DNA from: Oscillospiraceae bacterium
GTDB taxonomy: Bacteria; Bacillota; Clostridia; Oscillospirales; JAAYXM01
Length of the DNA: 39,509 bases
Direction: 5' to 3'
NCBI GenBank assembly: GCA_017435965.1
Contig: JAFSEA010000020.1
Location: 1-39,509, forward strand
Every line of letters starts with the position of its first letter. Within the stretch, counting starts at the first letter, position 1. Position numbers and translations under genes: made by a program. Shown here one piece after another: positions 3,966 through 33,857 of this stretch. The notes beneath the pieces were generated by a model, which did no database searches, was not told the origin of the DNA, and saw nothing but the letters and a program-made list of their open reading frames with translations.

Positions 3966-6900
3966 TTACTTTGTGTAATCGAGGATTCTCTTTATGAGAA
4001 CTGCTACTTCTGCTCTTGTTGTATAATCGGTTGGTGCGATTTCGCCGTTCTTTCCGTTTACAAGCCCTGCAGATATGAGGGCCGAGACTGCTTCTTTTGC
4101 GTAGTCGGAAACAGAGTCGAAATCCTCGTAGGGAACGACCTGTGTGTCGTTCCGTTTTTCGATTTTCTCAAAAGCGGCAAGTGCTCGGTAAACGATTACC
4201 ATCATATCCTGACGGGTAATGTTTTCTCTCGGTGCATACTTATTATCGCCAATTCCACCGACGAGTCCCGTGTTTCTTGCGATTGCAAGCTCACGTGCAA
4301 AGTAGTCGGTTTCAAGAACATCAGCGAAATTCTCGGTATTATCGGAAGAAAGACCGAACGCACGGACAAGGAGAATTGCAAAATCTGCTCTTGTGATATT
4401 ATTTCCGGGAGAGAATGTGGTCCCACTCGTTCCCTTGATAATACCTTCATCTGCAAGGGCGTTGATTGCATCTTCCGCCCAGGCGTGGTTTCCGAGGTCT
4501 ATGAAGCGTACATCCGAAATTTCCGGTGTATCAGGAACCTTTGGTGTGTCCGGAGTTTCAGGCTCATCAGAAGCTTCGGACTTATTCGGTGTTGTTGTGG
4601 TCGCACTTTCACCGCCGCCTCCGCCACCGCCGGTAGAACCGTATACAGTTACATCAAAGCTCTGACTGCTTTCTCTTCCGGATTCATCTCGAGCCGTGAT
4701 AAGAAAGCCTGATTCACCTAACTGAGAGCTTGTCGGCTTCCATGTGATTACTCCCGTTGACTCATCAATAGAAGCGCCTCTCGGCATTACAATTCCTGCA
4801 AAAGTTATGTTTTCACCAAGCGGACTTTCTGCATTAAGCTTTATGGTAATCGAGCTTCCTGCAGAAGTTGTGATTTTATCCGATACCGGAGCAAATCTTG
4901 GTGCTTCGTTGTATACGTTTGATAATGGGATTGTAAAGCTCTGTCCTTTCTGTATGTTATATACATATCCCTGACTGAAATCGGCAGTATTCTTGAATGC
5001 GGATATAAGGCTTATGTCTCCGATATTAAGAGACACATTCTCGCCATTCTGTTCTGCCCCAACTATCTTATATGCACCATTCTGACTGCCTGAGTTTTCA
5101 ACATAAATATACTTATCTTCAAGCTCCGACAGATCAACATCACCGTCAAACTTTACATTGATGCTGTTATCAAATGAAAGCTCTTCCGTAAAATCAATAA
5201 CTGTTCCTTTATATGCAGCAACACCTTGATTTTCTCCAATGATATCTCCATCATTTACATATGCATATATGTTTTCTTCTGCTTCATTTACAGAATAAAC
5301 GCCGACGAAGCCTCTGAAATCAAAGCTTACATTTCCGTCTGTGACTGTGTATGTAATACCGTTGTTTGTTGCATATACAACATAATCACATCTTCCCGAC
5401 TTGAGCTTCACCTTGACTGCTTTAACCACATCATCCTTTGCTGCTTTTCCGTCCTTGATACTTACGGAAATACTTTCAGCACTTTCTATATACATTTCGC
5501 CCTTATAAGGCTGAATAAGCGATGTGAAAAGTGTGTCAAGTTCAGTGCCTTTACGATGGATAAGCATATAATCAAGTCCCGGAATTGCTTTATTGTTTTC
5601 AACATTCGGGGCATAGCCTGTTGCAATTCCCACTCCGTCAGGTGTCCAGTCGTTAAGTGCCGTAAATTTAAGATTAAGGTCTTTTGAGTCATTTACCTGC
5701 TTCTTAAAATCGGTCTGTTCGAAGTTGACCGAGAATGTGCCGTCTTCGATATTTTCCGCACGATTCACATTATCAAGCCAAGTGTATCCTCTCGGATATT
5801 CAGTTTCATACGTCCACGCATTCGGCGAATTAGGATCTTTTCCGTATGGTACATCTTTTCCTGCATATGAGCCTACATACTCTCCGTTTTCGTCAACCTG
5901 AGCAACAAGGTTCAAATCATCCGTTGTATATCCCATGTACGACTGTGTGTGGAAGCTGTATGTATGCTCGTCTCCTCCCTTGACACGGAAAAAGTCTATT
6001 GTGTAGACATCCTTCGGGGATGCTTCAATCGTCAAGGCAGTTCTGCGATAAATTTCCGTCTCATCATACGGTGATGCCTTTACATCCACAAGCTTTACCT
6101 TTTCCGTGCTGTCAAAATGCATCGGATAGCCTGTATAAATTGAATTCTGCCAATCTTCATTTACAACGACAGTATTGTGTGAGAGTGTGTTTGATACCCA
6201 CTGCAAACGGTTTGGCTGCGTTCCCGTTTCCTCAGGATATCCGAGGTCAGGAGTGAAGTTGAAGCCGTATGCATCAATTCCGAGCTGAAGCATATCACGG
6301 TGTCCGTGTCCGCTTGTCCTTCCGTAATACATATACGTATCGTAGCGTTGCTCTTCATCACTATTTGCAGAGCTGCTCTTTATATTTTTACCGCCGCGAA
6401 GAATTGCAAGACCAAATCCCGTGAGATTGTTGCTTTCCATTATACGCTCGCCGTTTTCTTCTATAACCTGCTTCATTTCAGCTTCGAGCGTATCATTGTT
6501 TGTGAAGATATCAACGATGGGATCTTCGATTTTGTTTCCGCTTATATAATAATAGTTTTGTGCAATACGCGGATCTCTCAGCAAATTATATGCTCTCAGA
6601 AGAATTGAAGTATTTGTTGCATACTTCTTTCCTGCAGTTTCACCGTAGTCTCCGCCGGCATATGTATAATCATTTCCGAGGGTAAGCTCAATCATTCCAC
6701 GTATCATCTTTACAAACTTCGGATTTGCAAAAAGGTCAAGGTTTTCATTATCAACACCGTAACGATAAATAGCCTCCGCAACATCGAAGCTACCGGACAA
6801 CCACGAATTGTTATACGATGCACCAACCTCATTTCCAAAGCCGTCACGGTCAACCTCATTGATATAACGGGTTACCATTTCACCGCCGCTGTTTGAAATG

Positions 6901-9900
6901 CATACATTATATGTTTCTCCATATATCGAATCTTTCATCGACTTGCTCTTCGTTGTGCCAGTAGCAATGATCCAATCAAACACAGCGTTTGTCTCTTCCG
7001 AGCAATCGAGAACAATTGCAACCTGTGCTGCGAGAAGCTGATGCATTCCGAAGTTTCCGAGTGCACGACCTTCCTTGAGGTCCTTCACACTCTCGCGAAG
7101 AATTCCGTTTTCAATATTCTCACGAATCATATCCGGAGAGGTTTTTGGGTTCTCAAGTCCATTTTCAAGAGCTTTTTTGGAGAGATATGTAACAACCTGT
7201 GCGTCATCATATATCGGATAGAATGCATCGTATCCGGTTACCAAGCTCTGCGACAGACCGTTCTGCCAAATGCTGCCCAGTATTCTTCCGCTGTTTCTTC
7301 CTCCATGTGAATTTGAATAGCTCAGGCTTGTGTTCTCAAACTTAAAATACGGATACAAATCTGCTATTCTGTCAATAAGTATTGCTCCTGCTCTTCCGTA
7401 TTTCTTATCGCCTGTGTATAGATATGCATTTTTCAGATCATCCACTGCAGTGATGAAGGAATCTCCCTGCAATAAATCATACCAAGCGCCGTGCATATAC
7501 AATGCCACGGGACAGAATTTATGCAACGTTTTCGTTCCGTAAGTTCCGTCGGAAACAGACCAGCCATATCCATCATCAACCATCCATGTTGATGCGTTTT
7601 CTGCTGAAACGTCAAGCTGTTCATCTTTCCATACATCGGGATAAAGAACATTAACAAGTGCATCTTTTTCGCCGTTTTCAACGGCAATTCTGTTATTTTC
7701 AATTGCAAGTTCTCTGTTATATACGCCGTTTTCGTCAAGTCCACGCTTGTATAAAAGTTCAAAATCATTCGATGGGAACAGACGTTTGCAATCAGGACAC
7801 TGTACCTTCCACGGATTTCTTGTCACGTTGATATTCCAACCGTAACTGCCGTATTTTGCACGTATATCCGTTTTGCAATACGGGCAGTTATACATCATTG
7901 TATCAGGTGCGTTGAGAGTCGCAATCGTAGCACTTCTCGGAACACCTTCTCCCGGCAGGTTACTGTATAACACATCGAGGTTTTCAACCCACTTGTCTGC
8001 TGCTACAGCCGCATTTTTTGCTTGAGTTCTTGCCCAATCATACTTCCCGACATTGCGAAGAGCCATCTCACGCATCTCATATGTATACAATGTCGGCTCT
8101 GTCTTTTCAGAGCTTGAAACAACAGTTGCATCGTATGTAAACTCTATTCCTCCCACATCAGCCGTCACTCTGACAACACCTGTGCCACGTGCAACAGAGA
8201 AAACACTTCCTTCGTCATTCACAGCAACAATGTCAGGAGTGAGACTTTCATATGAATATATCGCACCGTCAAGATTTCCTTCAGAGCCATCATTGTTCGT
8301 TCCTGTTACCATCAGCTTCGAACCATCAAAATCAAGAACCGAAACTATTTTATCTTCGCATCTTGCGCTGATTGATGCAAGCTTTACGGATTCCACAGTG
8401 ATTCTTTCCGTCACAGTTTTCTCCGTGCCGTTGAAGGTGACGTGAGCCGTTATATTCGCTTCTCCTTCTGCAAGTGTCAAAAGCTTATTGCCTGAAATTT
8501 CTGCTATAGCTTCGTTATCCGAAGTAAAGTAATAGGATATATCACGTGTATTTACCGCAATTCCGTCGGAAAGAATAGCGCCGGCCGAAATTTCCGTCTC
8601 ACCTCCGACATAGAATATCTCGTGAATAAGATCGATTGTCGCTTTATCAAAAACACTATCATTTACGACAAAATCGAACTCATCCGAAACTTCGGCATCA
8701 CCGATTTTTCCCGAAATAAGCATTTTTACGTTTCCGGGAGTCTTCGCCTTTACAAACGCACCGTCAACTACCGCAACGGATGCATCCGAGCTCGTCATTG
8801 CAAGATTTATTTCCTTTATTCCGTCAAGTGACGGTCTTGCATAATACTTTGTGCCGTTATCCTGCAGAACATAGAGTGCATATTCTTCACTCTCGCCTGC
8901 GGCAATATTTTTCCTTGCCATTTCGGCGCCGAGCTCTGCAGTTTTGCTGAGTTCTCCCGTTCCCTTGAATTCGAGATACGATGGGTACATATTTGCACCC
9001 CATCCCGTTTTCTCTTTTGCAACCAAGGTGAGCGTGTGTGTTCCCTCGGAAAGCTCAAGTGAACGCAGATTTGCAATATATGCAGGATTTACCGTTGCCG
9101 GACTGTAGAAATCGTACTGTCCAATATATTTTCCATCGATATAGATATACGCTGCACTTGCGCCTCCAGATGCCTGGATACCACGGAACGTTATATCGTA
9201 TGCCCCGGAATCCTTCATATAAAAATCAAACGAAATCTGATTTGATGCCTCGGCATTTGAAGACTGAATCTGTAGTCCATATACCTGGAATCGGGTTATG
9301 GTCGATCCGTCACAAAGCTTACTGTCTGTCATACTCTTGTTTATCTGCCAACCGGTATTCTCAATCGTCGCATCATATACCGTTGGCACAACCTGATTCT
9401 GGAAATCGACCTTGAATGACGGATAAACAGGCTCTTCCGAGACAACAAGCGATATTTTCCCCGAAGCAGATTCGCCGTCTATTGTTACCGATGCACTTAT
9501 CTCGACTTCTCCGACCGATACCGGCTTCACGATACCGCCTGCATCCACTGTAGCAACATTTTCATCCGAGCTTTCAAAGCTTATTTCGGCTTTTGAAATA
9601 TCAACATCTCTTCCCGTATTATATTTCGCCGAAACGTTTATCTTCATTCCGTCCGCATCCGCCATAAGAACGAATGCCTTTTCGGAAGAAAGCAAAACTT
9701 CTTCTATCTTTTCTTTTATAACCGTAAAGCTTATCGGTTCAAGCTCTTTGATATTTCCGTCTACCTCAACTGAGAGCGAAACATCGGCTTTACCTGCTCC
9801 CACAGCGGTGACAGCTCCGCTTTCCGAGACAGATATTACCGAATCATCGGAGCTTTTTACTATAAGTTTTATGCTTTCATCGTTGCCTCCGGCAAAGGTA

Positions 9901-11138
9901 GCATTTCCGAGATTGAGCTTTTCTCTTCGGAGGTCAATCTCTGCTCCGTTTTCGAATTTAAGCACGCCCGAAAGATTAGCGTTCTCCCCCGTAAGAAGCT
10001 CTGTTTTATCATACAAAAGTACTGCTTCATCAATTTTCGTGAGCTCTTCTTTCTTTTCAAACTTCACCTCAACGGGAAGCATAACCGAATGTGCTCCGCC
10101 CGAGCTACTTGCAAGAAACGTGAGCTTATGTTTTCCATCGGAAAGCTTCATCGGGCGAAGCTTTGCTGATGTTGCATTCACATAATCCGCCTTGTCTGCT
10201 CTGCAATCAAACCTGCCCACGTAGATGCCGTCGATAAAATAGTTTATATATCCGCCCTCGGGACGATGCATACCATACGCCGTTATGTCGTATATACCGC
10301 CACCGTATGTCTCGAAATCAAACGTGATATATTTGTTATCCGCAACACCCCACGTCGCAAACGAAGAATATGCTTCAAAGCACGAACCTGTAGAGCCGTC
10401 GGCTATCGTTGAGTTTGCTCCATCAACCGACCATCCCTCACCCCTTGAAGTTGCAAGATAGTTCGGATATCTTGTTGTTCCGGGGGCAGGATTTGTTGAA
10501 CTCCAGCCCTCTGTCGGCGTCATTGTACTCGTATCTCCCGTGCGGAGGTCAACACTAAAATTATCTTTGATAACTTTCTTTTGAAACTCCACCTTAACAG
10601 GCAGCATCATCGCATTTGCTCCCGACGATTTCTCGGCAAGAAGCTTGAGCTTATGAGTTCCTGCCGTGAGCGTTATCGTTCCGAGAGTTTCCGACGTTGC
10701 TGTCGTGAGATTGTCCTTTGCTGCATAACAATCGAATTTTCCGATAAACTCACTATCAATAAAATAATTTATATATCCACCTGCGACACGATGCATACCG
10801 AATGCCGTGACTTCATACGTTCCGTCTCCCGGAACCGTGAAATCAAACGTAACGTACTCATTGCCGGTTGCACTCCAGGTCGCGATGGATGTGTATGTAT
10901 CGAAATATGACATTGTGGAACCGTTTGCCAGCGTTGAGTTTGCCCCGTCTACTGACCAGCCCTCACCCTTTGTATTCTCCGTATACGTCGGATACCTTGT
11001 TTCGCTATTCATTGTGCTTACGTCGCCCGTGCGAAAGTCCACTACGAAAGAGCCATCTGCTTCTGCTGATAGTGCAATAGTCGGCATCAGGCTTATAAGC
11101 ATCGCAACGGCAATAAGTAACGATACTATTCTTTTCAT
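3966..11138 (-). CDS. Giant SLH-anchored heparinase II/III-like polysaccharide lyase (2390 aa)
   Basis: Probable cell-wall-anchored lyase for uronic-acid-containing polysaccharide. A signal peptide is likely cleaved after ALSA at residue 25. Then come two related beta-sandwich-like modules (about 30-190 and 191-360), BIG2-type Ig repeats, a third divergent module (about 570-730) and more Ig repeats. The heparinase-like toroid begins near 1016 and has a four-Cys cluster (C1085, C1088, C1114, C1117) in the pattern CPYC...CPDC. Probable active-site elements are NFGMH (N1362, H1366), GHGHRD (H1611, H1613) and LSHNTV (H1654), matching the GHAHAD and AHNTV hallmarks of heparinase II/III proteins. 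A putative Ig domain (about 2083-2160), a Gly-rich linker and three SLH repeats (about 2208-2390; ITRAD, ITRQD, TTRAE) follow. SLH repeats bind pyruvylated wall polymers. AAGGAGGT precedes the ATG, 12 nt after the 788-aa gene. The substrate is unknown. Confidence 0.88.
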   Translation of the reverse strand: MKRIVSLLIAVAMLISLMPTIALSAEADGSFVVDFRTGDVSTMNSETRYPTYTENTKGEGWSVDGANSTLANGSTMSYFDTYTSIATWSATGNEYVTFDFTVPGDGTYEVTAFGMHRVAGGYINYFIDSEFIGKFDCYAAKDNLTTATSETLGTITLTAGTHKLKLLAEKSSGANAMMLPVKVEFQKKVIKDNFSVDLRTGDTSTMTPTEGWSSTNPAPGTTRYPNYLATSRGEGWSVDGANSTIADGSTGSCFEAYSSFATWGVADNKYITFDFETYGGGIYDITAYGMHRPEGGYINYFIDGIYVGRFDCRADKADYVNATSAKLRPMKLSDGKHKLTFLASSSGGAHSVMLPVEVKFEKKEELTKIDEAVLLYDKTELLTGENANLSGVLKFENGAEIDLRREKLNLGNATFAGGNDESIKLIVKSSDDSVISVSESGAVTAVGAGKADVSLSVEVDGNIKELEPISFTVIKEKIEEVLLSSEKAFVLMADADGMKINVSAKYNTGRDVDISKAEISFESSDENVATVDAGGIVKPVSVGEVEISASVTIDGESASGKISLVVSEEPVYPSFKVDFQNQVVPTVYDATIENTGWQINKSMTDSKLCDGSTITRFQVYGLQIQSSNAEASNQISFDFYMKDSGAYDITFRGIQASGGASAAYIYIDGKYIGQYDFYSPATVNPAYIANLRSLELSEGTHTLTLVAKEKTGWGANMYPSYLEFKGTGELSKTAELGAEMARKNIAAGESEEYALYVLQDNGTKYYARPSLDGIKEINLAMTSSDASVAVVDGAFVKAKTPGNVKMLISGKIGDAEVSDEFDFVVNDSVFDKATIDLIHEIFYVGGETEISAGAILSDGIAVNTRDISYYFTSDNEAIAEISGNKLLTLAEGEANITAHVTFNGTEKTVTERITVESVKLASISARCEDKIVSVLDFDGSKLMVTGTNNDGSEGNLDGAIYSYESLTPDIVAVNDEGSVFSVARGTGVVRVTADVGGIEFTYDATVVSSSEKTEPTLYTYEMREMALRNVGKYDWARTQAKNAAVAADKWVENLDVLYSNLPGEGVPRSATIATLNAPDTMMYNCPYCKTDIRAKYGSYGWNINVTRNPWKVQCPDCKRLFPSNDFELLYKRGLDENGVYNRELAIENNRIAVENGEKDALVNVLYPDVWKDEQLDVSAENASTWMVDDGYGWSVSDGTYGTKTLHKFCPVALYMHGAWYDLLQGDSFITAVDDLKNAYLYTGDKKYGRAGAILIDRIADLYPYFKFENTSLSYSNSHGGRNSGRILGSIWQNGLSQSLVTGYDAFYPIYDDAQVVTYLSKKALENGLENPKTSPDMIRENIENGILRESVKDLKEGRALGNFGMHQLLAAQVAIVLDCSEETNAVFDWIIATGTTKSKSMKDSIYGETYNVCISNSGGEMVTRYINEVDRDGFGNEVGASYNNSWLSGSFDVAEAIYRYGVDNENLDLFANPKFVKMIRGMIELTLGNDYTYAGGDYGETAGKKYATNTSILLRAYNLLRDPRIAQNYYYISGNKIEDPIVDIFTNNDTLEAEMKQVIEENGERIMESNNLTGFGLAILRGGKNIKSSSANSDEEQRYDTYMYYGRTSGHGHRDMLQLGIDAYGFNFTPDLGYPEETGTQPNRLQWVSNTLSHNTVVVNEDWQNSIYTGYPMHFDSTEKVKLVDVKASPYDETEIYRRTALTIEASPKDVYTIDFFRVKGGDEHTYSFHTQSYMGYTTDDLNLVAQVDENGEYVGSYAGKDVPYGKDPNSPNAWTYETEYPRGYTWLDNVNRAENIEDGTFSVNFEQTDFKKQVNDSKDLNLKFTALNDWTPDGVGIATGYAPNVENNKAIPGLDYMLIHRKGTELDTLFTSLIQPYKGEMYIESAESISVSIKDGKAAKDDVVKAVKVKLKSGRCDYVVYATNNGITYTVTDGNVSFDFRGFVGVYSVNEAEENIYAYVNDGDIIGENQGVAAYKGTVIDFTEELSFDNSINVKFDGDVDLSELEDKYIYVENSGSQNGAYKIVGAEQNGENVSLNIGDISLISAFKNTADFSQGYVYNIQKGQSFTIPLSNVYNEAPRFAPVSDKITTSAGSSITIKLNAESPLGENITFAGIVMPRGASIDESTGVITWKPTSSQLGESGFLITARDESGRESSQSFDVTVYGSTGGGGGGGESATTTTPNKSEASDEPETPDTPKVPDTPEISDVRFIDLGNHAWAEDAINALADEGIIKGTSGTTFSPGNNITRADFAILLVRAFGLSSDNTENFADVLETDYFARELAIARNTGLVGGIGDNKYAPRENITRQDMMVIVYRALAAFEKIEKRNDTQVVPYEDFDSVSDYAKEAVSALISAGLVNGKNGEIAPTDYTTRAEVAVLIKRILDYTK
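3980..4499. repeat. Long DNA repeat covering the SLH region, copy 1
   Basis: This tract is closely similar along its length to 16487-16997, and the downstream hairpins match as well. Both copies encode the three SLH repeats of the giant lyases. The similarity at DNA level is higher than in most of the remaining gene, which suggests recent exchange or gene conversion. Confidence 0.75.
10086..11058. repeat. About 970-bp DNA repeat of the two N-terminal modules, copy 1
   Basis: Directly repeated at 12468-13437 with an offset of about 2.38 kb and only scattered substitutions. It encodes modules 1 and 2 of the 2390-aa lyase; the other copy encodes modules 1 and 2 of the 788-aa protein. Some stretches, such as 10921-11027 against 13301-13407, differ at only one or two positions. 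Confidence 0.8.
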
Positions 11139-11150
11139 TTTGAGACCTCC

Positions 11151-13517
11151 TTACTCGGAATATATTACTTTATATTCTGCACCGTCTTTATAAATAAGAT
11201 AGCCCTTTGCAACGGAATAATCCGACTGTGCAGTAAACTGACCGTGGGATGAATTTCTCTGGGAATTCATCTTCTCGGAGCAGAATGCAATCGTTATTGC
11301 ATCGCTTTCTCCGAATATTATTCCAACTTCAATAATTTCCTTATCTCCTGCGTCATATTCAATCATATATGCGTCATTCTTGACAACATCATCCATAACT
11401 ATCTTCGGCGAATTGTCATATCCGCTTGCGGCAACAGTAATCTCGGTATTTCCCCATACGTTGAATGTATAGGTTTCGCCAAAATCAACTACCTTGCCGT
11501 CACGAAGCCAATATACTTCTCCATTTGCAGAAGTAAGTGTTATTTCATCATCATAGAAATATTCTCCGCTTACCTCACCCGAAACACCGTTTGAGGGAAT
11601 TGTTACAGAAAACTTTGCTTCCGTTTTTACAAACTTTGCAACCGCACGTGTGAAAGCCGTTACGTTTTCAAGAACAAGCGGAGTTTCCTCTGCTATCCAC
11701 CAATCATTGAATACATATCCGACGAGTGTTGGATTATTTTCGGGTTTTCCTTCTGATATTGCCCTTGTTTCAAGATACTGGCCATTTTCGTTATAATATT
11801 CAACTACAGCTTCGTCATTTGGAACATCCGAATAAACAGCAGTCAACATTGTATGTGTTGTCGCCGTAAATTCATATTCGGCAGAAACGGAGACAATTCT
11901 TCCATAGTCTGCACTTCCTCGTACCCAACCTATAAATCTCTTCCCTTCAAGATCTGCCGCAGATACCTTAACCGAAGTTCCTCTTTCAACCTGTATGGGA
12001 TTGAGCTTTGTATAGTTCTTAATTTCTCCGCCTATTTCAAGAGTTAATTCGCCTTCGGAATCTGCTGCAAAGGTAACTTTTGAAGACACGGAGTTATCCT
12101 TGACGCTGACAGAAACAGCATCTGACGTTACTGCAGTTCCGCCAATCTCAACAGTTGCCGTGATATTTGCAACTCCGCCTCCGACAGCCATTATTATTCC
12201 ATTTTCCGAAACAGTTACAACTTTCTTGTCGGAGCTTTCATATGTTATCTTAACGCTTTCATCATTACCTCCGTCAAGAGGAGCATTGCCCGTGTTGAAT
12301 TTTTTAGCGCGGAGATCAATTTTCACATCGTTCGCAAAGCTGATTTCTCCGGAAATGTTTGCGGTTTCATTCTTTTCAAGCTCCGCTTTGTCGCTTTCAA
12401 TCGTGACAGCGTTTATTGCAATAAGGCTGTCCGTCTTCTCGAAAGTTACTTTAACGGGAAGCATAGCCGAATGTGCTCCACCCGAACCGCTCGCAAGAAG
12501 TGTGAGCTTATGAGCTCCCGAAGACAGCTCCAATGGGCGAAGCTTTGCGGATGTTGCGTTTGCATAATCCGCTTTGTCTGCTCTGCAATCAAATCTTCCG
12601 ATGTAGATGCCGTCTATAAAATAGTTTATATATCCACCCTCCGGACGATGCATACCATATGCCGTTATGTCGTATGCTCCTGCTCCTGATACATTGAAAT
12701 CAAAAGTGATGTATCTGTTGTCGATAGTATTCCATGTCGCAAACGAAGAATACGTTTCAAAGCACGAACCGGTAGAGCCGTCGGCTATCGTCGAATTCGC
12801 ACCGTCAACTGACCACCCCTCACCCTTTGAGGTTGCAAGATAATTCGGATATCTTGTTGCTCCGGGCACGGCATCGGGTGTGTTCCATCCCTCGGTCGGT
12901 GTCATTGTGCTTGTGTCGCCCTTACGGAAGTCTACGTTGAAATCATCTGTGATGACCTTCTTGAAATCTACCTTCACGGGAAGCATCATTGCATTTGCTC
13001 CCGATGATTTCTCGGCAAGAAGCTTAAGCTTATGAGTTCCCTCCGTAAGCTTCACCGTCCCGAGGGTTTCTGACGTCGGAGTTGTGAGATCGTCCTTTGC
13101 TGCATAGCAATCAAATTTTCCGACGAACTCGCCATCAATAAAATAATTTATATATCCACCTGCGACGCGATGCATACCATACGCCTCGACCTCATACGTT
13201 CCGTCTCCCGGAACCGTAAAATCAAACGTAACGTACTCATTGCCGGTTGCACTCCACGTTGCGATGGACGTGTATGTATCGAAATATGACATCGTGGAAC
13301 CGTTTGCCAGCGTTGAGTTTGCCCCGTTTACTGACCAGCCCTCACCCTTTGTATTCTCCGTATACGTCGGATACCTTGTTTCGCTATTCATTGTGCTTAC
13401 ATCTCCTGTGCGGAAGTCAACGGAAAACGAGCCGTCTTCCTCCACTGCAAGTGCAAAGCCCGACATCAGGCTTACGAGCATACAGATTGCGATAATAACT
13501 GATAATGTTTTTTTCAT
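11151..13517 (-). CDS. Secreted multi-module protein paired with the operon A lyase (788 aa)
   Basis: No enzyme domain was recognised. A signal peptide ends near ALA at residue 24. Two N-terminal modules (about 30-190 and 193-360) are almost identical to those of the neighbouring 2390-aa lyase and have motifs such as VDFRTGD, GEGWSV.GANST and GYINYFIDG. They look like carbohydrate-binding beta-sandwiches, but no family was assigned. A BIG2-like domain (about 370-475), an InlB-like bacterial repeat (about 480-565) and a C-terminal half (about 570-788) with YMIEYD, EVGIIFG and GYLIY follow. This C-terminal half recurs in the 753-aa protein at 25617. No SLH, LPxTG or membrane tail is visible, so it is probably released or held by partners. 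AGGAGG lies 8 nt before the ATG, 17 nt after the GH20 stop. Substrate capture or scaffolding is an inference. Confidence 0.8.
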   Translation of the reverse strand: MKKTLSVIIAICMLVSLMSGFALAVEEDGSFSVDFRTGDVSTMNSETRYPTYTENTKGEGWSVNGANSTLANGSTMSYFDTYTSIATWSATGNEYVTFDFTVPGDGTYEVEAYGMHRVAGGYINYFIDGEFVGKFDCYAAKDDLTTPTSETLGTVKLTEGTHKLKLLAEKSSGANAMMLPVKVDFKKVITDDFNVDFRKGDTSTMTPTEGWNTPDAVPGATRYPNYLATSKGEGWSVDGANSTIADGSTGSCFETYSSFATWNTIDNRYITFDFNVSGAGAYDITAYGMHRPEGGYINYFIDGIYIGRFDCRADKADYANATSAKLRPLELSSGAHKLTLLASGSGGAHSAMLPVKVTFEKTDSLIAINAVTIESDKAELEKNETANISGEISFANDVKIDLRAKKFNTGNAPLDGGNDESVKITYESSDKKVVTVSENGIIMAVGGGVANITATVEIGGTAVTSDAVSVSVKDNSVSSKVTFAADSEGELTLEIGGEIKNYTKLNPIQVERGTSVKVSAADLEGKRFIGWVRGSADYGRIVSVSAEYEFTATTHTMLTAVYSDVPNDEAVVEYYNENGQYLETRAISEGKPENNPTLVGYVFNDWWIAEETPLVLENVTAFTRAVAKFVKTEAKFSVTIPSNGVSGEVSGEYFYDDEITLTSANGEVYWLRDGKVVDFGETYTFNVWGNTEITVAASGYDNSPKIVMDDVVKNDAYMIEYDAGDKEIIEVGIIFGESDAITIAFCSEKMNSQRNSSHGQFTAQSDYSVAKGYLIYKDGAEYKVIYSE
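12468..13437. repeat. About 970-bp DNA repeat of the two N-terminal modules, copy 2
   Basis: Partner of 10086-11058 in direct orientation. Recombination between the copies would delete about 2.4 kb and fuse the start of the 788-aa gene in frame to the lyase, because both copies lie at the same position of their reading frames. Confidence 0.8.
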
Positions 13518-16273: not shown

Positions 16274-16342
16274 CGCATACCTTCCGTAACCGCCGTCGTT
16301 GTACACAAAGCTCACCTGCCTTTCCATTATAAAACCAATAAA

Positions 16343-16371: not shown

Positions 16372-16426
16372 GCAAAAACAGATTTATCAAGCAAATGAAA
16401 ATATAAAACAAATGCGTAAAACACAA

Positions 16427-16463
16427 AACAACGGATGAAGCATTAAACGCCTCATCCGTTGTT
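16427..16463 (-). terminator. Terminator of operon B
   Basis: A 12-bp stem AACAACGGATGA (16427-16438) / TCATCCGTTGTT (16452-16463) lies just after the 3041-aa gene. On the minus strand it is followed by TTTGTGTTTT. The stem is almost the same sequence as the terminator at 3920-3952. Confidence 0.85.
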
Positions 16464-16472
16464 TCTGTTTAT

Positions 16473-25616: not shown

Positions 25617-27878
25617 TTAGTTCAACTCTGCGTAAACAACATTTGTAAATGTTCCGTCTGTATAAATTAAGTATCCTCGAACAACACTTTGGTCATATGT
25701 TCCGCTGTCGTTCTTCATCGCTGTAAACTGACCGTGAGTTGCATTTTCTTCTTTGTTTACGGATTTTGCCTTGTAGTAACAGCTACCGACTGTGTTGTGT
25801 GTGCTGTCACCGAAAAGAATTCCCGTTTCAATCTTTGTAAAGCCTTCTGGAATGTCATACTCAATCATATACATATCTTCCGTTGAATGCTTATCAAGCA
25901 CTATAACAGGAAGAACATCGGCATCCGCTGTTTCAAAGCTTATCTCGGCAGCATCGAAGATATAGTGATTATATGTTGTACCGTAGGCAACTGTCTTTCC
26001 GTTACGCTTCCATACCTTTGCAGTTGCATCGCTGAAGGTTATCGATTTATCATAAACGACGTCATATTCTTCCGAACCGAAGCTTACTTTTCCGCTATAC
26101 TTCTTTCCTTCATCCTTATACTTTGCAACAACTCTTGTAACTGCCTTTACAATGTTACTTCCGTCAAATGCGGTTTTTCCGTCTGTTGTCCACATATCAA
26201 ATATGTATCCTGCAAGAGAAACTTCCGGAATATCCGATATTGCATTTTCCGTTGTCGTTTTCTTTGTTACAAAGTCGCCGTTTCCGTTAAAGAAGTAGAC
26301 CTCTTTTTCTTCGCCCTCAGCTACAGTCACCTTATCAAAAACTGCGATTATTGATGTGTTCACATAGGGTCTGAAAGAATACTCCGCATCACCGCTTATA
26401 AATTTTCCGGATGCATCCTTCCAATGGCTGAATACATAGCCTTCATCCGCAATCGCTTCTGCACGAATATTTGTTCCGGGTGCGACACTTGTAATTTTTT
26501 CAGAAGTGGATTTTTCAACAGTTCCGCCCGAAAGCGCATCAATGTATACGCTTATATTCTTCTCTATTTCCTCGCCCGGTGCTTCTGAAACGAGTTCCAT
26601 TTTAAGTGTGTTGAGAGCAATTCTTGCTGTTTCGTACGGAGTTGTCAAATCGCTGTAATAGCCATTCTTTGTTACCGCAAAGGTAACCTCTACCTTGCTG
26701 TCTGCATCAGGAGTTATATACACACTTCCAAGTTTTTCTTCGCCACCATGCACCCACAACACAGATTTATCAAGAATGTTTGAAGAATAGCTTCCTGCAA
26801 GTATACCGTCAACGTATACATCAAACTCTCCCGCTGAGTATAATTTTGTTCCTGTCATTGATATGTCATAGTATCCGGATTTTGCATTTTCGCCCATATC
26901 AACGGAAATTGTCCATCTTCCGAGATTATCGGATTCAACTCCGCTCCAGGGCTGTCTTCCAAGGTCAAGCTGTGCAAACTTTTCATATTTTCCGTCTGCA
27001 TTTTTAGAACTTAAGTCAATACGTGTTCCATTATTCGAAAATGTTGAGCTCTTCGCTGCAACTGTCGTAAAGTTTGAACCAAAAATTCCTGTTACAGGCC
27101 ATTTGACACTCCCTACATATGTTCCGTCATCGGTTGCACTGCGGAGCACAGTTCCGAAATCAACCTTTACAACACCCTCTTCGGGTACATACTCCGAAGG
27201 TGTGAGCGAAAGTGAATTTATTGAAAGTCTCGCTGTGTCATACGGCGTTGTCATATCTGTATAATATCCTTTGTTGGTACAGCGAAAAGAAATTTTAATC
27301 TTTTTGTTGCTGTCGGGAGTTATATACACCTGTCCGAGTTTTTCCTCTCCACAGAATTCCCAGCTCACGCCACCCTTTGTGGCAATATACTCACCTGCGT
27401 ATGCATTATCCACATATACATCGAATGTTCCACTTTGCGGCGTCTTTGTTCCGCGGATTGCAACATCATAGTAACCTGTTTCTGCATTCTCTCCAAGATA
27501 TGCTTCTATCGTCCACACGCCTTTGAAATCAGAGCCTGTATATACATCCTTTCCATCCCACGCACGTGTGCCCAAATCAGCGATGAGGAAACGTTCGCTT
27601 TCTCCGCTTTCATTGGTAATTGTAAGATCGTTGCGAGTTCCTTTTACTGCATAACTTACCGTTTCAGCCGCAACAGTTGTGAAATTGTCCCCAAACATTC
27701 CGTTAACGTTCCAAACCGAGCCGTATACCCCGTCATCCCCTTCGCCACGGAGAAGATTTCCGAAATGGAACACAATTTCACCGCTTCCGGTAATTTCTAC
27801 CGTGGTTTCCGCAGCTACTGCCGGGACTAATGCCACGAGCATACATACTGCCATAATCATTGCCAATATCTTTCTCAT
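25617..27878 (-). CDS. Secreted multi-module protein paired with the operon B lyase (753 aa)
   Basis: No enzyme domain was recognised. A signal peptide ends near AVAA at residue 23. Two modules (about 29-230 and 234-440) belong to the RGEGDDG / VYITPDSNKK class found in the neighbouring 3041-aa protein, not to the class used in operon A. An InlB-like repeat (about 442-515) and a C-terminal half (about 522-753) follow. That half parallels the 788-aa protein, with YMIEYD, IETGILFG, THGQFTA and RGYLIY. No SLH, sortase motif or membrane tail is visible. AGGAGG precedes the ATG, which starts only 3 nt after the ceramidase-like gene ends. Likely a secreted glycan-binding partner of the lyase (inference). 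Confidence 0.8.
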   Translation of the reverse strand: MRKILAMIMAVCMLVALVPAVAAETTVEITGSGEIVFHFGNLLRGEGDDGVYGSVWNVNGMFGDNFTTVAAETVSYAVKGTRNDLTITNESGESERFLIADLGTRAWDGKDVYTGSDFKGVWTIEAYLGENAETGYYDVAIRGTKTPQSGTFDVYVDNAYAGEYIATKGGVSWEFCGEEKLGQVYITPDSNKKIKISFRCTNKGYYTDMTTPYDTARLSINSLSLTPSEYVPEEGVVKVDFGTVLRSATDDGTYVGSVKWPVTGIFGSNFTTVAAKSSTFSNNGTRIDLSSKNADGKYEKFAQLDLGRQPWSGVESDNLGRWTISVDMGENAKSGYYDISMTGTKLYSAGEFDVYVDGILAGSYSSNILDKSVLWVHGGEEKLGSVYITPDADSKVEVTFAVTKNGYYSDLTTPYETARIALNTLKMELVSEAPGEEIEKNISVYIDALSGGTVEKSTSEKITSVAPGTNIRAEAIADEGYVFSHWKDASGKFISGDAEYSFRPYVNTSIIAVFDKVTVAEGEEKEVYFFNGNGDFVTKKTTTENAISDIPEVSLAGYIFDMWTTDGKTAFDGSNIVKAVTRVVAKYKDEGKKYSGKVSFGSEEYDVVYDKSITFSDATAKVWKRNGKTVAYGTTYNHYIFDAAEISFETADADVLPVIVLDKHSTEDMYMIEYDIPEGFTKIETGILFGDSTHNTVGSCYYKAKSVNKEENATHGQFTAMKNDSGTYDQSVVRGYLIYTDGTFTNVVYAELN

Positions 27879-27881
27879 TTT

Positions 27882-29258
27882 TTATTCCTCCTGATTTTTT
27901 ATTTTAACAGAAACCTTCTGTTTAGATACCTTAGAGTCGTTTTCCAAACTGTTTATGAGCTTAACCATCTCATCCGCTATAACAAAATCTTCGCCTTTTT
28001 TGACATTCGAGCTTACCGCCTCATAAATGCCCCCGTCATATGCATCACTTGTCGGGAAATATGTGTTTCCGCCATTTGTACAGCAACAGAGGAGGGTCAT
28101 TTTATGTTTTGAACGTTCACGGATTCGTTTTCCTATATCATTGAAGGGCTCACCCGGTATTCCGCCAAAAACAACATCTCCTATCTTCACTGCACTTAAA
28201 AGTATTTCAAAGCTTTCCGGACCATTTTCAAGTCTTTCTATCCTGAGAGCTTCAGGAACGGAAATGTTGGGTGTATCTTCTCTTCGTTCAAACGACTCCC
28301 CGTATTTCCGATAAAGCTCAAGTACCTTTTTTGCATCCTCGAGCTTGTCGTTTGCTTTGTTTGTCCTGATACTTATCTTTTTTGTTGCAAAATCTATATC
28401 TTTGCTTTCAAAGGGCTTTGTTTTTCCGCAAATCTGAAGAACACCGCCAGCCAAAGCCATCCCCATATACTTTGTAAATTCATATCCGTGGCGTATGTCC
28501 CACTCGCCTTTTATGGGGCTCACGTCAAAGTGGTTCAAATCCCCTTGAAAGCCTGTAAAGAATGCGCACTTGACAGTTCCCAAAGCATTTTCAACGGTAT
28601 TACGAAGTATTCCGCACCAATCAGCGCTGATATAATCTCCGCTGATTGTGTCGGGATGAACACCGAAATTAACAATATAAATATCATCGGTGTTATCTCG
28701 CTCTGCTTTCAGGAGATACATTCCTTTGTGAGGCTCCGATACAGGTCTGACTATATCAGGATTCCCTATACCGGGATTGGTCTTAACACTTCCATCCTTC
28801 ATATGGTATGCACGCACAAATGCGATATTTTCTACGGTTCCGGACGAATAAGAAAGCTTTGCCGCTTTTGCATCGTCAAGAGCCATTTGCGCACAGTTGC
28901 AAAGTAGTTCTCCCAGATATTCATCGTATATTGGCATTCCGTCACCTGTCTCACGGATACCAAGAGTCGGTCCGGTATGCGTATGAGTTGCCGAAAGAAA
29001 AACTGCGTCTATTGAGATGTTTAGCTTCTCCGAGATTTTTCTTCTGTACGAATTTGCAAAATCGTCCGTAATATAAAGTAAATCAACGCTTATCAGAACG
29101 ACAGTTTTCTGCGAGTTTACAAAAGAAACAGCATTTGCATAAAGATCGTCGAGAACTCCTTTTGCTATTCGGGGATAAAAGTATCCCGAAATATTTATCC
29201 CAAGAGGCGGAGTTATGCAGACACGTGCAAAACCGACTTTGAGATTTCCGTTTTCCAT
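27882..29258 (-). CDS. Neutral/alkaline ceramidase-fold hydrolase, substrate unknown
   Basis: The 458-aa protein matches the N-terminal catalytic domain of neutral ceramidases, zinc amidases that use a Ser nucleophile. Visible motifs are GYFYPR near the start, the zinc-site motif THTHTGP (H92, H94) and FGVHPD (H201) followed by SADW. At the position of the ceramidase GDVSPN motif it reads GDLNH (D240-H243), so the nucleophilic Ser is absent. There is no signal peptide and no C-terminal Ig-like domain, unlike secreted ceramidases. It therefore probably hydrolyses another bond, perhaps in an imported glycan derivative. AGGGAGG lies 10 nt before the ATG, and the gene starts 21 nt after the GH20 stop inside operon B. 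Fold assignment is fairly sure; activity is not. Confidence 0.8.
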   Translation of the reverse strand: MENGNLKVGFARVCITPPLGINISGYFYPRIAKGVLDDLYANAVSFVNSQKTVVLISVDLLYITDDFANSYRRKISEKLNISIDAVFLSATHTHTGPTLGIRETGDGMPIYDEYLGELLCNCAQMALDDAKAAKLSYSSGTVENIAFVRAYHMKDGSVKTNPGIGNPDIVRPVSEPHKGMYLLKAERDNTDDIYIVNFGVHPDTISGDYISADWCGILRNTVENALGTVKCAFFTGFQGDLNHFDVSPIKGEWDIRHGYEFTKYMGMALAGGVLQICGKTKPFESKDIDFATKKISIRTNKANDKLEDAKKVLELYRKYGESFERREDTPNISVPEALRIERLENGPESFEILLSAVKIGDVVFGGIPGEPFNDIGKRIRERSKHKMTLLCCCTNGGNTYFPTSDAYDGGIYEAVSSNVKKGEDFVIADEMVKLINSLENDSKVSKQKVSVKIKNQEE

Positions 29259-29279
29259 TCACACTCATCCTCCCTACAA

Positions 29280-31073
29280 TCAATTTTGCATTTTCAAAAG
29301 GTCTCGCTTGTGCATTTTAAGATGTTCTATGAACACTTCAACGCCTTTTTCGTAGTTTTGCGAAAGCCACAGGCGTTTGTATTCGGGAATCATCCAATCT
29401 ATAATCTCACAAAGCTCGGACACCTTTGCTTTGTCGGCGTTTTTCTTTCCACGGAGCTTACAAATTTCTGCCGAAAGAATAACCATTTTTGAATTCAGCA
29501 TTATTTCTGCTTTAAGTTCATCATCCAATGAAAGCTTTTCGATTTCCGAAATTGTTTTCTTGGTATAATCTATAACATTTCCATAGAAAAACTCTGTGTC
29601 AAAGCTATCAAGATCAAAGAGGTTATAAAGCTTTGTTTCACACATAGGCTTCCAGAAGTTTCCGCCAAGCATTGTGCCGACCGGAATTCTTATAGGTTCA
29701 AGCAGGTAGTAATTTCCCATTCGGAAAAGAAGTTTAGACAAACCTTCACACTTAAACACAGCTTTGTCAAGAATTTCACCGGCTGCCGTAACATAATCAA
29801 CACCAAAACCGATGCCTTCACACTCACCGTCTACAATATTCCATGCATACATACCTGCAAGAGCAATCGGGATAAGCTCCCACACGGGAAAATGCGGATG
29901 ACCCGTTTCACCCTGACCCGTTCCCCACTCGGTGAGAAGAAGTCCTTTTGCACCGTTTCTCACGCCAATCTGTGCCGAGGTTCTTATGTGCGAAAGCATT
30001 ACATCCGACCTACCTGTGAGGGACATATGTGTGTTGCAGGAGGGACAAACGTAAAACTCACATCCGATATCTCTGAACAGAGCACAATGCTCTCCCATTG
30101 CTCCCATATCCTGATTTTCATATCCCCATTCAAGAGCTACGGCATCCTTGGGCAAGGATTTATAAATATCACGATTTTTTACAATCATATCCGCCCAGTA
30201 CATAACCGTCTTACCGTATTTTTCTTTCACATAGGAATTTATCTTTTCCATCCAGGTGAGCCACGCCTTTTCTTTTCCGTGCTTTTTGCAATATTCTTCG
30301 GTCTGATATAAACCGAGACCGTATGCTTCATCAAGACCAATGTTTACATAATCGGATTTGAAGTGCGGCAAGACCGAATCAAAAAGCTTTTTTATAAATT
30401 CAAAGCTCTCCGGAAGAAGCGGATTCAATGTGTTCAAATCGTTTGTGCCGTCACCGAGACCCAAATACTTTAGTTCATCATATTTAAGCCATGGTGCGAG
30501 ATGCCCGAAGGAGTTCTGATTTGGAACAAGGTCGATGAATCTTTCCGAGCAATAATCTTCAAGCTCTTTTATATCTTCGGGAGCGAGACAATCAAAGCTC
30601 TTCGTATACTCAGGAAATCCGCTGTACTTAAAGCAATCTCCCTCCATATATATCTGGAACTCGTTATATTTAAACATACAGAGCACATCAATTATTTTCT
30701 TGAAGGTCTCCACCTTCGGCATACGGCTTCGGGCTATATCATACATATAACCTCGCCGTGAAAGCTGTGGCTCATCCTCTATATGGAGACACGGAAGACT
30801 GCAACCATTTTGCTTTATAATCTGCCACAGGGACGTGACACCTCGAAAAAGACCTTCATCACAGGAGTATGTAAGAGTGATTCCGTCACTCTTTATATCA
30901 AGAATATACTCTTCCTTCTTAAGGCAAGGATTTTCTTTTAGTGATACATTCCCTATGCCCTTTTTTATCTCCGAAAACAGCTCTACGATTGAAAGCTTTT
31001 CGTATGCTTTGTCAATGACGTAGCTTCCTGAGCTTATTTCAAGTTTCTTTTCTTTTGGAGCAAGCATCTTCAA
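29280..31073 (-). CDS. GH20-like beta-N-acetylhexosaminidase, cytoplasmic (operon B copy)
   Basis: Paralog of the GH20 at 13535, 597 aa, with the same order of domains. The N-terminal GH20b-like domain is followed by a barrel starting at RGYMYDIARSRMPK. The catalytic pair is D248-E249 in VNIGLDEAYGLG. Shared signatures include CPSCNTHMSLTGR, LEWGYEN and LLTEWGTG. No signal peptide is present. AAGGAGG precedes the ATG, 10 nt after the transporter gene. Two divergent GH20 copies in parallel operons suggest that each trims a different oligosaccharide, for example GlcNAc- against GalNAc-containing products; this is not shown by the sequence. Confidence 0.85.
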   Translation of the reverse strand: MKMLAPKEKKLEISSGSYVIDKAYEKLSIVELFSEIKKGIGNVSLKENPCLKKEEYILDIKSDGITLTYSCDEGLFRGVTSLWQIIKQNGCSLPCLHIEDEPQLSRRGYMYDIARSRMPKVETFKKIIDVLCMFKYNEFQIYMEGDCFKYSGFPEYTKSFDCLAPEDIKELEDYCSERFIDLVPNQNSFGHLAPWLKYDELKYLGLGDGTNDLNTLNPLLPESFEFIKKLFDSVLPHFKSDYVNIGLDEAYGLGLYQTEEYCKKHGKEKAWLTWMEKINSYVKEKYGKTVMYWADMIVKNRDIYKSLPKDAVALEWGYENQDMGAMGEHCALFRDIGCEFYVCPSCNTHMSLTGRSDVMLSHIRTSAQIGVRNGAKGLLLTEWGTGQGETGHPHFPVWELIPIALAGMYAWNIVDGECEGIGFGVDYVTAAGEILDKAVFKCEGLSKLLFRMGNYYLLEPIRIPVGTMLGGNFWKPMCETKLYNLFDLDSFDTEFFYGNVIDYTKKTISEIEKLSLDDELKAEIMLNSKMVILSAEICKLRGKKNADKAKVSELCEIIDWMIPEYKRLWLSQNYEKGVEVFIEHLKMHKRDLLKMQN

Positions 31074-31083
31074 ACCTCCTTAT

Positions 31084-31932
31084 TTAAATGTTGAGTAGTA
31101 CAACAGAAATTATGCCGAACATATATCCGAGAATTTGTACTTTTGAAAGCTTCTCTTTGTAAAAAAGAATTGCTATTGCAAAGGTTATAGCCATTCCGCC
31201 TGCCGAGATTGAAGGGAACAAAATTGCCGTGGGCAAAAGTCCCGTCAGGAGCATTACAAAGAGATTTACCGCACCGTTTGCCACACCCTGGATTGGTGCA
31301 TACCGAAGCGCAGTTGTGATGCTTTTGCCGATATTTTTGTTCTTGTACAATCCCGAAACAAGCGAAGCCAATGTGACAAAAAGCAGAGCAATAATCATAT
31401 ATTCATTTTTATATGCTCCGCCAAACTTTAGCTGTTGCATTTTCTGAACGGTTGAACACATACCGTTACCGACAAACTCAACAGCGAGCCAGATAAACCA
31501 ACTGCGGGAAAACTGCAGTTTTTCATTTTTGAGATTTACAAAAACAAGTGCCGTAAAGAGCAAAACAATCCCAATGTATCCGCAAGCTCCGATATCATCT
31601 CCGAGCCAAATAATTCCATACAAGGTCGGAATTATAAGACCGAATTGATTCACGAGAACCGATATTGAAAGCGGTCCTGTTCGTATTGCATTAAGACCGC
31701 CGAACAATGCCATACAATAGAACACACCAAAGGCTATTGAATATGGAACAACATCGGGGTTGAGATTAAATGAGCCCACTCCGCATATCACGAAGAAAAT
31801 CATTGCAAAAAATGCCGAAACCGCAGAGAACATCATTGAATTCTGACATTCTGCTTTAAGGCTGTATTGTTTTGAGACAATTCCCTGTGCCGTAACTCCG
31901 AGAATTGTTGCCGCAAGAAGTATGTAATTCAT
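31084..31932 (-). CDS. EamA/DMT-family membrane transporter
   Basis: This is a 282-aa protein with about ten hydrophobic helices in two halves and the typical DMT ending, GGMAITFAIAILFYKEKLS followed by a last helix. DMT proteins move small metabolites such as amino acids, nucleotide sugars or sugars, in either direction. The start codon overlaps the stop of the upstream TIM-barrel gene (ATGA, 4 nt), which indicates translational coupling and a shared function. It is the only transporter in operon B. The substrate cannot be read from sequence. Confidence 0.8.
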   Translation of the reverse strand: MNYILLAATILGVTAQGIVSKQYSLKAECQNSMMFSAVSAFFAMIFFVICGVGSFNLNPDVVPYSIAFGVFYCMALFGGLNAIRTGPLSISVLVNQFGLIIPTLYGIIWLGDDIGACGYIGIVLLFTALVFVNLKNEKLQFSRSWFIWLAVEFVGNGMCSTVQKMQQLKFGGAYKNEYMIIALLFVTLASLVSGLYKNKNIGKSITTALRYAPIQGVANGAVNLFVMLLTGLLPTAILFPSISAGGMAITFAIAILFYKEKLSKVQILGYMFGIISVVLLNI

Positions 31933-33857
31933 ATTTTTTCTTTATCTTTTCCTTTCTTTGAAACCACAAAGCCTGCGAAAGAAAAGGGAGGTATTTCGGA
32001 AAGATACACTTTATCTCCCTTAATCTCACCTGTGCAGTTTATACACTCAATTTCAGAATATTCGGAATCAAGCTCAATCACGGGATCAATTACCGAGTCC
32101 GGGAAGATGTTCCACAGGCCGACAGCCATCTCATTCTCTTTCTTTTTCGCAAGTGTGTAAAGGTCGGGGTTTCCATAAGAATAAGCAGGGAGCTTTTCTC
32201 CAAAAAACTCGACGGCTTCTTTTATCTCACGGGACCTTAAGTAGCTTCTGTATGTAATTTCACCGTTAAAATATGCATCAAATGCAAATACGAGGAATTT
32301 ATGTCCCGAAGCATTTTCATAGAGGTATGAGCCGATAATTTCGCCCGTGGACACTTTATCTTCCTTTGTGTAGGAAAATCTGCTCATTATTTTTGCTTTT
32401 TCCGAAACGGAAATATCATACACATTACATTCAATTCCATGGAATCGGAACTCAACTCTGACCACATCACGACCTTCGTTGAAAAACTCCTCATCACACG
32501 AAATCAATGAGCCTTTTTTGATAAGTCCCACATCAATTCCATTTTCGCTGAGAATTTCAGCGGCACGCATATCAATTATGACACCTTTTTTCAACGCCTC
32601 ATCGGAAAGCTCTGTTGCATTTTCACCAAAGGCGATTCCGCATACTCCGAGGCTTTCATACACCGACGGTATTGAATTATCAGATGTCATTCTTGAAGCC
32701 GGAGAGAAAAAGCAATTCTGAATTTCTTCTCCCATTCCCGATATGGATTCAGGAATTTTCATATCGGAGAACTTTTTCATTTTCTCATACACTCTGATTC
32801 CGCAAGGCTTTTTGTCTCCGAAATGCTTTTCTATTTCCGAATAAAGCGGAAGGTTTCGGATGTGGTGGAAAATATATCCCGACTCATATCCCGGATTTGA
32901 ATAATAGTCAATTCCGTATTTTAAAATTCCGTCAAAGCCGCCGGATGCCCGAAGTGCAGTATCAAAAATCTCAAGGTAGCTTGCCGGGCAGTTTGTTCTC
33001 GGTCTCGGGTATACATCTCCTTCGGAGAATACTTCAATGCCGCTACCCTCACACCAGCTTTTTTCCATACGCTCAAGCTCTATGATATTCTGCAAACGGT
33101 TTCCCCATTGCTTTTCTTTTGCCCAATACGGTGCACCGATAAAGCGCATAAAAGGCTTTGTATTTCCTGCAAGGAGCTTTGAAATTGTTATTGAATCAGT
33201 TCCGTCTGTATCCCATGCGCCGATGCAGGAACACTGACCGAGACGAATTTCGGGATTCACTTCGTCAAGTGCCTCTCTCATTCTTTTTGCAAAGCTCTCC
33301 AAAAAATAGCCGTTGGCAGAAAGCCACGCATCACGGTATTTATTCTTACCTCCGGATAAAAGCTTTGATATTTTCTCCTCATCAAGCTTTTCTCCGAGAA
33401 GCTTTTCCATATAGGCAATATGGTTATCGCACACACAACCCATTCCGATATCAAGAAAACTGTATCTGAAATCATCATCGTACATTATTATATCAGGTTC
33501 GCACGCCGCCATTTTCTTGATATAATCGGCGGCAAACTCAACAAAGGTTTCATCGGACGGACAAAGCTGAGTTGTACTCACCTTTCCCTCCGGTGATTTC
33601 ATATGCATATATGAATTCTTTTCAAGCATAGTCATTGACCATATCCAGACACCGACTTCAAGACCGTGCTTTTTAAAAAAAGTGCAATTTTCACGGAGAG
33701 CATCAAAATCACGCTTTTGCTTTTCCGAATCCAGCACATATTCTCCAAAGCCCAAAAACACACGTTTTGCGCCCAGCTTTTCTATTTCTGCAAGAAGGTT
33801 CTCTCTCCCCATTCTTGCTATATTTGAATTCATTATCGGAACAGATATTTTATACAT
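31929..33857 (-). CDS. Putative TIM-barrel glycoside hydrolase, family not recognised
   Basis: First gene of operon B, 642 aa, with no signal peptide. Residues about 1-340 look like a (beta/alpha)8 barrel: it has a VGVWIWSM strand, an acidic strand end MYDDDFRYSF, EVFSEGDVYPRPR, and LKYGIDYY near the barrel end. Residues about 390-470 resemble a flavodoxin/GATase-like domain as in the trimerisation domain of GH42-type enzymes, followed by a small beta-rich tail. I do not recognise a defined CAZy family. DDDF and the SEGD glutamate are candidate catalytic acids. AGGAGG lies 6 nt before the ATG. Its place at the head of the operon and its coupling to the transporter gene suggest a cytoplasmic glycan-processing enzyme. 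Confidence 0.6.
   Translation of the reverse strand: MYKISVPIMNSNIARMGRENLLAEIEKLGAKRVFLGFGEYVLDSEKQKRDFDALRENCTFFKKHGLEVGVWIWSMTMLEKNSYMHMKSPEGKVSTTQLCPSDETFVEFAADYIKKMAACEPDIIMYDDDFRYSFLDIGMGCVCDNHIAYMEKLLGEKLDEEKISKLLSGGKNKYRDAWLSANGYFLESFAKRMREALDEVNPEIRLGQCSCIGAWDTDGTDSITISKLLAGNTKPFMRFIGAPYWAKEKQWGNRLQNIIELERMEKSWCEGSGIEVFSEGDVYPRPRTNCPASYLEIFDTALRASGGFDGILKYGIDYYSNPGYESGYIFHHIRNLPLYSEIEKHFGDKKPCGIRVYEKMKKFSDMKIPESISGMGEEIQNCFFSPASRMTSDNSIPSVYESLGVCGIAFGENATELSDEALKKGVIIDMRAAEILSENGIDVGLIKKGSLISCDEEFFNEGRDVVRVEFRFHGIECNVYDISVSEKAKIMSRFSYTKEDKVSTGEIIGSYLYENASGHKFLVFAFDAYFNGEITYRSYLRSREIKEAVEFFGEKLPAYSYGNPDLYTLAKKKENEMAVGLWNIFPDSVIDPVIELDSEYSEIECINCTGEIKGDKVYLSEIPPFSFAGFVVSKKGKDKEKI

Follow-up and report, generated by a model that had tools for sequence, protein, structure and literature searches.

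In the polysaccharide utilisation loci (PULs) of the Bacteroidota, the gene for a dedicated surface glycan-binding protein (SGBP) lies beside the gene for an enzyme, and there is one such system per glycan, with its own regulator. Large multimodular enzymes with carbohydrate-binding modules (CBMs), held on the Gram-positive cell wall by S-layer homology (SLH) domains, are described in Paenibacillus sp. JDR-2 (Xyn10A1, Bgl16A1 and Amy13A2), which has 77 SLH proteins, 29 of them for carbohydrates (PMC4765114). Here we describe a 39,509-nucleotide stretch of DNA (“the window”: contig JAFSEA010000020.1 of assembly GCA_017435965.1), which comes from an Oscillospiraceae-type metagenome-assembled genome (MAG) of the ruminant hindgut (2.65 Mb in 119 contigs, 88% complete, 2.1% contamination). 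It carries, on the minus strand, two operon-like units, in each of which a gene for a secreted module protein (MOD1, 11151-13517; MOD2, 25617-27878) directly precedes that for a giant, SLH-anchored, lyase-like protein (SLH-lyase 1, 3966-11138; SLH-lyase 2, 16473-25598). We consider it probable that these are two copies of a surface cassette of two genes, for a uronic-glycan lyase and a dedicated binder, that has expanded within the genus.

The cassettes resemble the Bacteroidota PULs in that a binder gene stands beside that of a degrading enzyme, with its own regulator; they differ from them in that a Gram-positive has no SusC/D, that binder and enzyme here have homologous modules, and that the enzymes of all loci come from a single family. 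The JDR-2 enzymes, in contrast, come from many families, with about one per substrate, where the host of the window has a single lyase family in 59 copies; and the part of the JDR-2 report drawn on here (PMC4765114) mentions no module-repeating secreted partner, while each MOD repeats the modules of an enzyme. At the level of the catalytic core, the PL17 (polysaccharide lyase family 17) alginate lyase Alg17c (4nei) and the PL40 ulvan lyase Uly1040 (9vtk) share the fold and the Asn, Tyr and HxH residues, and PL40 also the Asp-His-metal arrangement, but at 16-19% identity, and the proteins described here have an extra, zinc-ribbon-like N-terminal part and a giant, modular, anchored architecture. 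SLH-anchored surface glycanases with CBMs are already known; what differs here is that one family has ~59 copies and that the modules of each enzyme recur in a secreted partner. A preliminary description of this DNA had held that the system was not of a standard described type, and literature searches on this architecture likewise gave no match (subscription papers lay outside their scope).

The lyase family and its predicted active site

Searching the host genome gave 59 matches to PF07940, nearly all of them in open frames of 2,000-3,300 aa; 57 exceed the curated cut-off of 24 bits, with the two window lyases at 28.7 and 39.6 bits. Comparison of the stretches fetched around all 59 matches places them in one family: CBM-like and Ig-like modules make up an N-terminus that varies, the core of ~1,000 aa is conserved, and an SLH region lies at the C-terminus. 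The complete genes have a median length of 2,628 aa; the SLH region is present in 55 of the 59 (the exceptions are mostly truncated by contig ends), and a simple heuristic finds signal-peptide-like starts in 54/55. The lyases alone make up 17.2% of the assembly, and lyases and MODs together 20.8%. Pairwise core identity has a median of ~41-42% and a maximum of 73%; on that maximum, and a contamination of 2.1%, strain redundancy was rejected as the source of the 59 copies.

Three congeneric genomes hold 21, 58 and 72 candidates; in another congener there is 1 match (3 candidates). Sister genera have 1-11 candidates each, and 398 genomes across the phylum have at most 11 each, in frames of ~560-1,440 aa. 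Since three congeners carry 21-72 and genomes across the phylum no more than 11, the expansion is genus-specific and is seen in several independent MAGs. The named relatives are Oscillospiraceae/Clostridia MAGs from the hindgut of goat, water buffalo and water deer, while Paenibacillus and Cohnella have single, shorter relatives without SLH. Four giant members of the family, in a water deer MAG (L154, L161) and the goat MAG RGIG3136 (L172, L173), had no SLH or MOD detected; several are cut at contig ends.

SLH-lyase 1 (2,390 aa), characterised by Pfam, by conservation over the 59 paralogs and by fold, runs from a signal peptide through two CBM6/35-like modules, Ig-like modules and a third CBM-like module to the core (~1076-2080), which is followed by a He_PIG Ig domain and three SLH domains. 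In SLH-lyase 2 (3,041 aa), CBM-like and Ig-like modules extend to ~1700 and precede the core (~1701-2740), He_PIG and three SLH domains. Both proteins match the three SLH domains and Hepar_II_III_C above the Pfam cut-offs. An AlphaFold model of the core (mean predicted confidence, pLDDT, 90.6) has the fold of an (alpha/alpha) toroid with an antiparallel beta-sandwich, and its best structural match is Alg17c (Z 36.0 over 591 residues, root-mean-square deviation 3.5, 19% identity), closely followed by Uly1040 (Z 35.6 over 659 residues, 16% identity) and then, in order, by PL39, PL12, PL15, PL21, PL35 and PL33. Profile searches gave partial matches to PL17 (2e-10 over 135 positions), PL40 (5e-7) and PL39 (9e-5).

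The putative active site comprises, in SLH-lyase 1 numbering, N1362, E1437, Y1442, D1497, H1611-x-H1613, D1631 and H1654, each present in 55-59 of the 59 lyases: Asn and Glu in 58, Tyr and Asp in all 59, and the two His in 59 and 58. The four cysteines of the zinc-ribbon-like part (C1085/C1088/C1114/C1117) are invariant. N1362, Y1442, H1611 and H1613 are together intact in 57/59; the two lyases changed at one or other of these positions (L042, C51_1200_g17; L052, C36_2001_g5) are candidates for inactive or altered proteins. In a profile alignment PL17 lines up directly with the HxH...D...H metal-site region, and the correspondence of N1362, Y1442 and D1497 is one of motif order and spacing in motif/profile alignment, as distinct from superposed coordinates. 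The conserved residues match the published catalytic sets of PL40 Uly1040 (Asn245, Tyr305, Asp358, His485 and His487; PMC12915356) and of PL35, PL17 (Tyr258/His413/Asn201) and PL39 (Tyr239/His405/Asn186; PMC12088678). By domain, modelled fold and residues, the window lyases class as members of the heparinase II/III-like (toroid plus beta-sandwich) superfamily.

The anchors behave differently from the cores: the SLH domains of the lyases have a median pairwise identity of 72%, against 41% in the cores, which suggests either homogenisation of the anchor or strong constraint upon it. The genome has a PF04230 pyruvyl transferase gene, of the kind required for making the SLH ligand. It also holds 267 candidate SLH repeats (150 scored), and proteins other than the lyases account for many of them.

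Secreted partners that repeat the modules of their lyases

The preliminary description had spoken of a matched secreted partner, and the match proves far more literal than that wording implied. MOD1 (788 aa) and SLH-lyase 1 share 74% identity over residues 1-473 of each, and the first 1084 nt of the two genes are 83% identical as DNA; the two N-terminal modules of MOD2 (753 aa) have counterparts at 541-811 and 856-1097 of SLH-lyase 2, with 42-55% identity. Common to MOD1 and MOD2 is a C-terminal domain of ~297 aa, by which the MODs are defined (45 such proteins in the stretches fetched around lyases), and which consists of InlB-like repeats and an end segment without a family. A PDB profile search with this domain matched internalin B repeats; matches to WD-40 and designed propellers, resting on a biased stretch of ~22 residues, were disregarded. 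Of the 55 lyases for which upstream sequence is available, 30 have a MOD directly upstream on their own strand, mostly 13-136 bp away. For 12 more a MOD lies 2-4 genes upstream, and some of these MODs belong to a neighbouring lyase.

A Pfam scan matched no CBM model to the N-terminal modules. Their modelled folds are nevertheless those of CBM6/CBM35-like beta-sandwiches, with matches to CBM6/35/36 or to the xanthan-binding module MiXBM at Z 9-12 over 105-120 residues; the MOD1 modules resemble MiXBM (Z 12.3, 118 residues), CBM6 and CBM35, and the CBM35s matched include ones whose solved structures contain glucuronic acid or unsaturated galacturonic acid.

Genome-wide, in a module comparison that left out the first 30 residues, the own lyase was the best match among 57 lyases for 27/37 MODs, with summed own-pair bits of 8,107 against a permutation mean of 1,422 and maximum of 2,748 (2,000 permutations); in three other genomes this held for 20/31 MODs. 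Neighbouring lyases, in contrast, were mutual best N-terminal matches in only 3/19 cases, while 17/18 MODs preferred their own lyase over the next lyase on the contig. On these controls, proximity was rejected as the cause: the matching belongs to the MOD-lyase pair as such and does not follow from nearness.

These figures also bear on the possibility that the proteins form a diversified surface coat or adhesin set, in which catalysis is secondary and the matching arises by repeated module copying between neighbouring genes. Such a set might well have SLH domains as constant as those seen here beside divergent cores and highly variable N-termini, the MODs have no catalytic domain, and the 83% DNA identity of MOD1 and SLH-lyase 1 suggests recent copying. 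However, modules are common to a MOD and its own lyase and not to neighbouring lyases, so copying is confined to the pair, and the active-site residues are intact in 57/59; we judge a coat or adhesin role unlikely, though it survives better than the other alternatives.

Whether such copying continues within cassettes may be approached through orthologs. At C24/L171 there is 41% identity between orthologs, against 55% and 74% within the cassette, and in several of the few cassettes that could be compared the MOD is as close to its own lyase as to the MOD ortholog, or closer; C92/L102 gave the reverse of this within-cassette excess. Concerted evolution of MOD and lyase modules within a cassette could explain these identities, which are only suggestive of it.

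Gene surroundings and the two units of the window

AraC-family regulators lie within three genes of 34/59 lyases, mostly on the opposite strand. The lyase surroundings include sugar-binding, lipoprotein-type solute-binding proteins, Gfo/Idh/MocA oxidoreductases, xylose-isomerase-like barrels and GH39 (glycoside hydrolase family 39), a gene content that fits glycan foraging. The oxidoreductases and barrels are recurrent near lyases (L053, L031, L078 and others), pointing to a possible unusual sugar-acid catabolism.

An earlier guess at glycosaminoglycans as substrate is weakened by these data. Foraging on host glycosaminoglycans or mucin, in which the lyases would cut heparan, chondroitin or hyaluronan and GH20 would take off hexosamine, would accord with the PF07940 domain, the GH20 genes of some clusters, the gut habitat and the action on glycosaminoglycans of some fold relatives (PL12, PL21, PL33 and PL35). 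Yet the whole genome has one weak sulfatase match and two GH88-family matches, because of which sulfated glycosaminoglycans are disfavoured as the main target; the closest folds are those of PL17 (alginate) and PL40 (ulvan), not of heparinases, and most lyases have no GH20 nearby. These points do not extend to unsulfated hyaluronan. We regard this substrate assignment as unlikely.

In the window itself the order GH20, MOD, SLH-lyase is found at both places, as the preliminary description had it, with inter-gene gaps of 3-21 bp (12-17 bp in unit 1, 3-21 bp in unit 2). The GH20 gene of unit 1 (13535-15307, minus strand) encodes 590 aa with a GLDEA catalytic-pair motif and no signal peptide seen, and that of unit 2 (29280-31073, minus) 597 aa; the two match PF00728 at 71.7 and 68.5 bits against a cut-off of 22.3. 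Unit 2 has the genes described, including the one reported as of ceramidase fold (27882-29258, minus; 458 aa), although its match to PF04734 (ceramidase_alk) is marginal (32.8 bits against a cut-off of 32.1) and covers the N-terminal half only. The unit starts further upstream than had been proposed, with tightly coupled genes for an EamA/SMR-type transporter (31084-31932, minus; 282 aa, a weak family match) and, as its first gene, a 642-aa protein (31929-33857, minus) that overlaps the transporter gene by 4 bp. Pfam, NCBIfam and PDB sequences gave no match to this protein; judged by eye only, it has the look of a candidate TIM-barrel-type hydrolase. Each unit has its own AraC-family regulator beside it, identified by Pfam: one at 15452-16327 (minus) adjoins unit 1, and a PocR-type one at 33898-34857 (plus) is divergent from unit 2. 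The terminator-like hairpins 3′ of the units (3920-3952 and 16426-16464, both minus) are indeed alike, with the common stem CAACGGATGA..CATCCGTTG, and the likeness extends into the final ~540 bp of both SLH genes (78% DNA identity); a common terminator as a genome-wide element was rejected, hairpins 3′ of other lyases of the genome having other sequences. Separately, the gene at 36084-39509 extends past the window end; it encodes a secreted repeat protein at least 1,141 aa long, in which ten Listeria-Bacteroides (Flg_new) repeats occur.

At 49% identity between the GH20s, and 40% between the SLH proteins over 1,950 aa, the likeness of the two units is, on sequence grounds, real homology and not chance. 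They were taken to be a duplicated cell-surface glycan system. The surface glycan systems, each with its own regulator, SLH-anchored lyase-fold enzyme and matched partner, stand; the duplicated pair does not. The window lyase cores are 42% identical, which is the family median over all pairs, and the tree places the two lyases in different clades, so there was no local duplication; each has closer relatives elsewhere in the genome (C22, C70 and C95 at 57-60% to SLH-lyase 1; C41 and C95 at 61% to SLH-lyase 2). The SLH domains of the two lyases (79%) rank only 235th of 1,081 pairs, and there is no special likeness between the modules of the two units (rank 9 and 12). That a locally duplicated operon pair serves two forms of one substrate is thus very unlikely and largely refuted already, despite the repeated gene order, the like terminators and 3′ ends, and the closeness of the window GH20s, which form a clade together with those of C55 and L134. 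The trio recurs in the same order in one other species (L134 in SIG480), with looser variants at C94 and L171, and is not a conserved unit. GH20 is an optional accessory, since the whole genome has only 11 GH20 genes against 59 lyases. The conserved unit is the two-gene cassette of MOD and SLH-lyase, of which the window units are two examples.

A proposed surface cassette for uronic-acid glycans

Several findings weigh against a cassette of uronic-glycan lyase and dedicated binder. There are just two GH88-type genes for 59 lyases; 13/55 lyases have no MOD within four genes; 10/37 MODs match another lyase better than their own; the N-module folds come from a model with parts below pLDDT 50; the source genome is a MAG, in which some cassettes are cut by contig ends; and an enzyme that is not a lyase, human dermatan sulfate epimerase 1, has this core fold too (Z 25.8). 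That the core is, on this last likeness, a C5-uronyl epimerase, or has some other non-lyase activity of the toroid-and-sandwich fold, is nevertheless the least probable of the alternatives, as the nearest structures are all lyases and secreted, wall-anchored enzymes with CBMs normally degrade.

From the observed gene content, copy number, architecture, active-site conservation, fold, module matching and regulator proximity we infer a cassette that would work as follows. A giant secreted lyase would be anchored on the cell wall via its three SLH domains, and its toroid plus beta-sandwich core would cleave a uronic-acid-containing polysaccharide by beta-elimination, with the Tyr as acid, a His as base (helped by the Asp and the metal site) and the Asn as carboxylate neutraliser. 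CBM6/35-like modules in the long N-terminus of the lyase might choose the glycan. The MOD, carrying near-copies of its own lyase's modules on a constant C-terminal domain of ~300 aa, would bind the same glycan and could thus be a dedicated capture or adhesion partner of that lyase. Specificity for many glycans or decorations may then come from the divergence of the ~59 lyases and of their modules, with the cassettes tending toward an AraC-type regulator each, and GH20-type accessories could be added where the glycan contains hexosamine.

More tentatively, we suggest that this is an undescribed Gram-positive foraging strategy, in which ~60 anchored paralogs of one lyase family, each with a binder kept specific by continual module copying within the cassette, would form orthogonal enzyme/receptor pairs for a range of structurally different uronic-acid polysaccharides of the hindgut, for instance plant gums or the exopolysaccharides of bacteria. 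The family offers ~59 candidate lyases whose active sites are intact and which are ~41% identical to one another, along with an equal number of new binding modules. They come from a lineage of the ruminant hindgut that is seen, among the records examined, as MAGs only. If the proposal is true, the cassettes are natural matched pairs of enzyme and glycan-binder, in which the specificity of one partner could be compared with that of the other, and their host would be a gut bacterium that specialises by massive expansion of one lyase family, and not by gathering many families.

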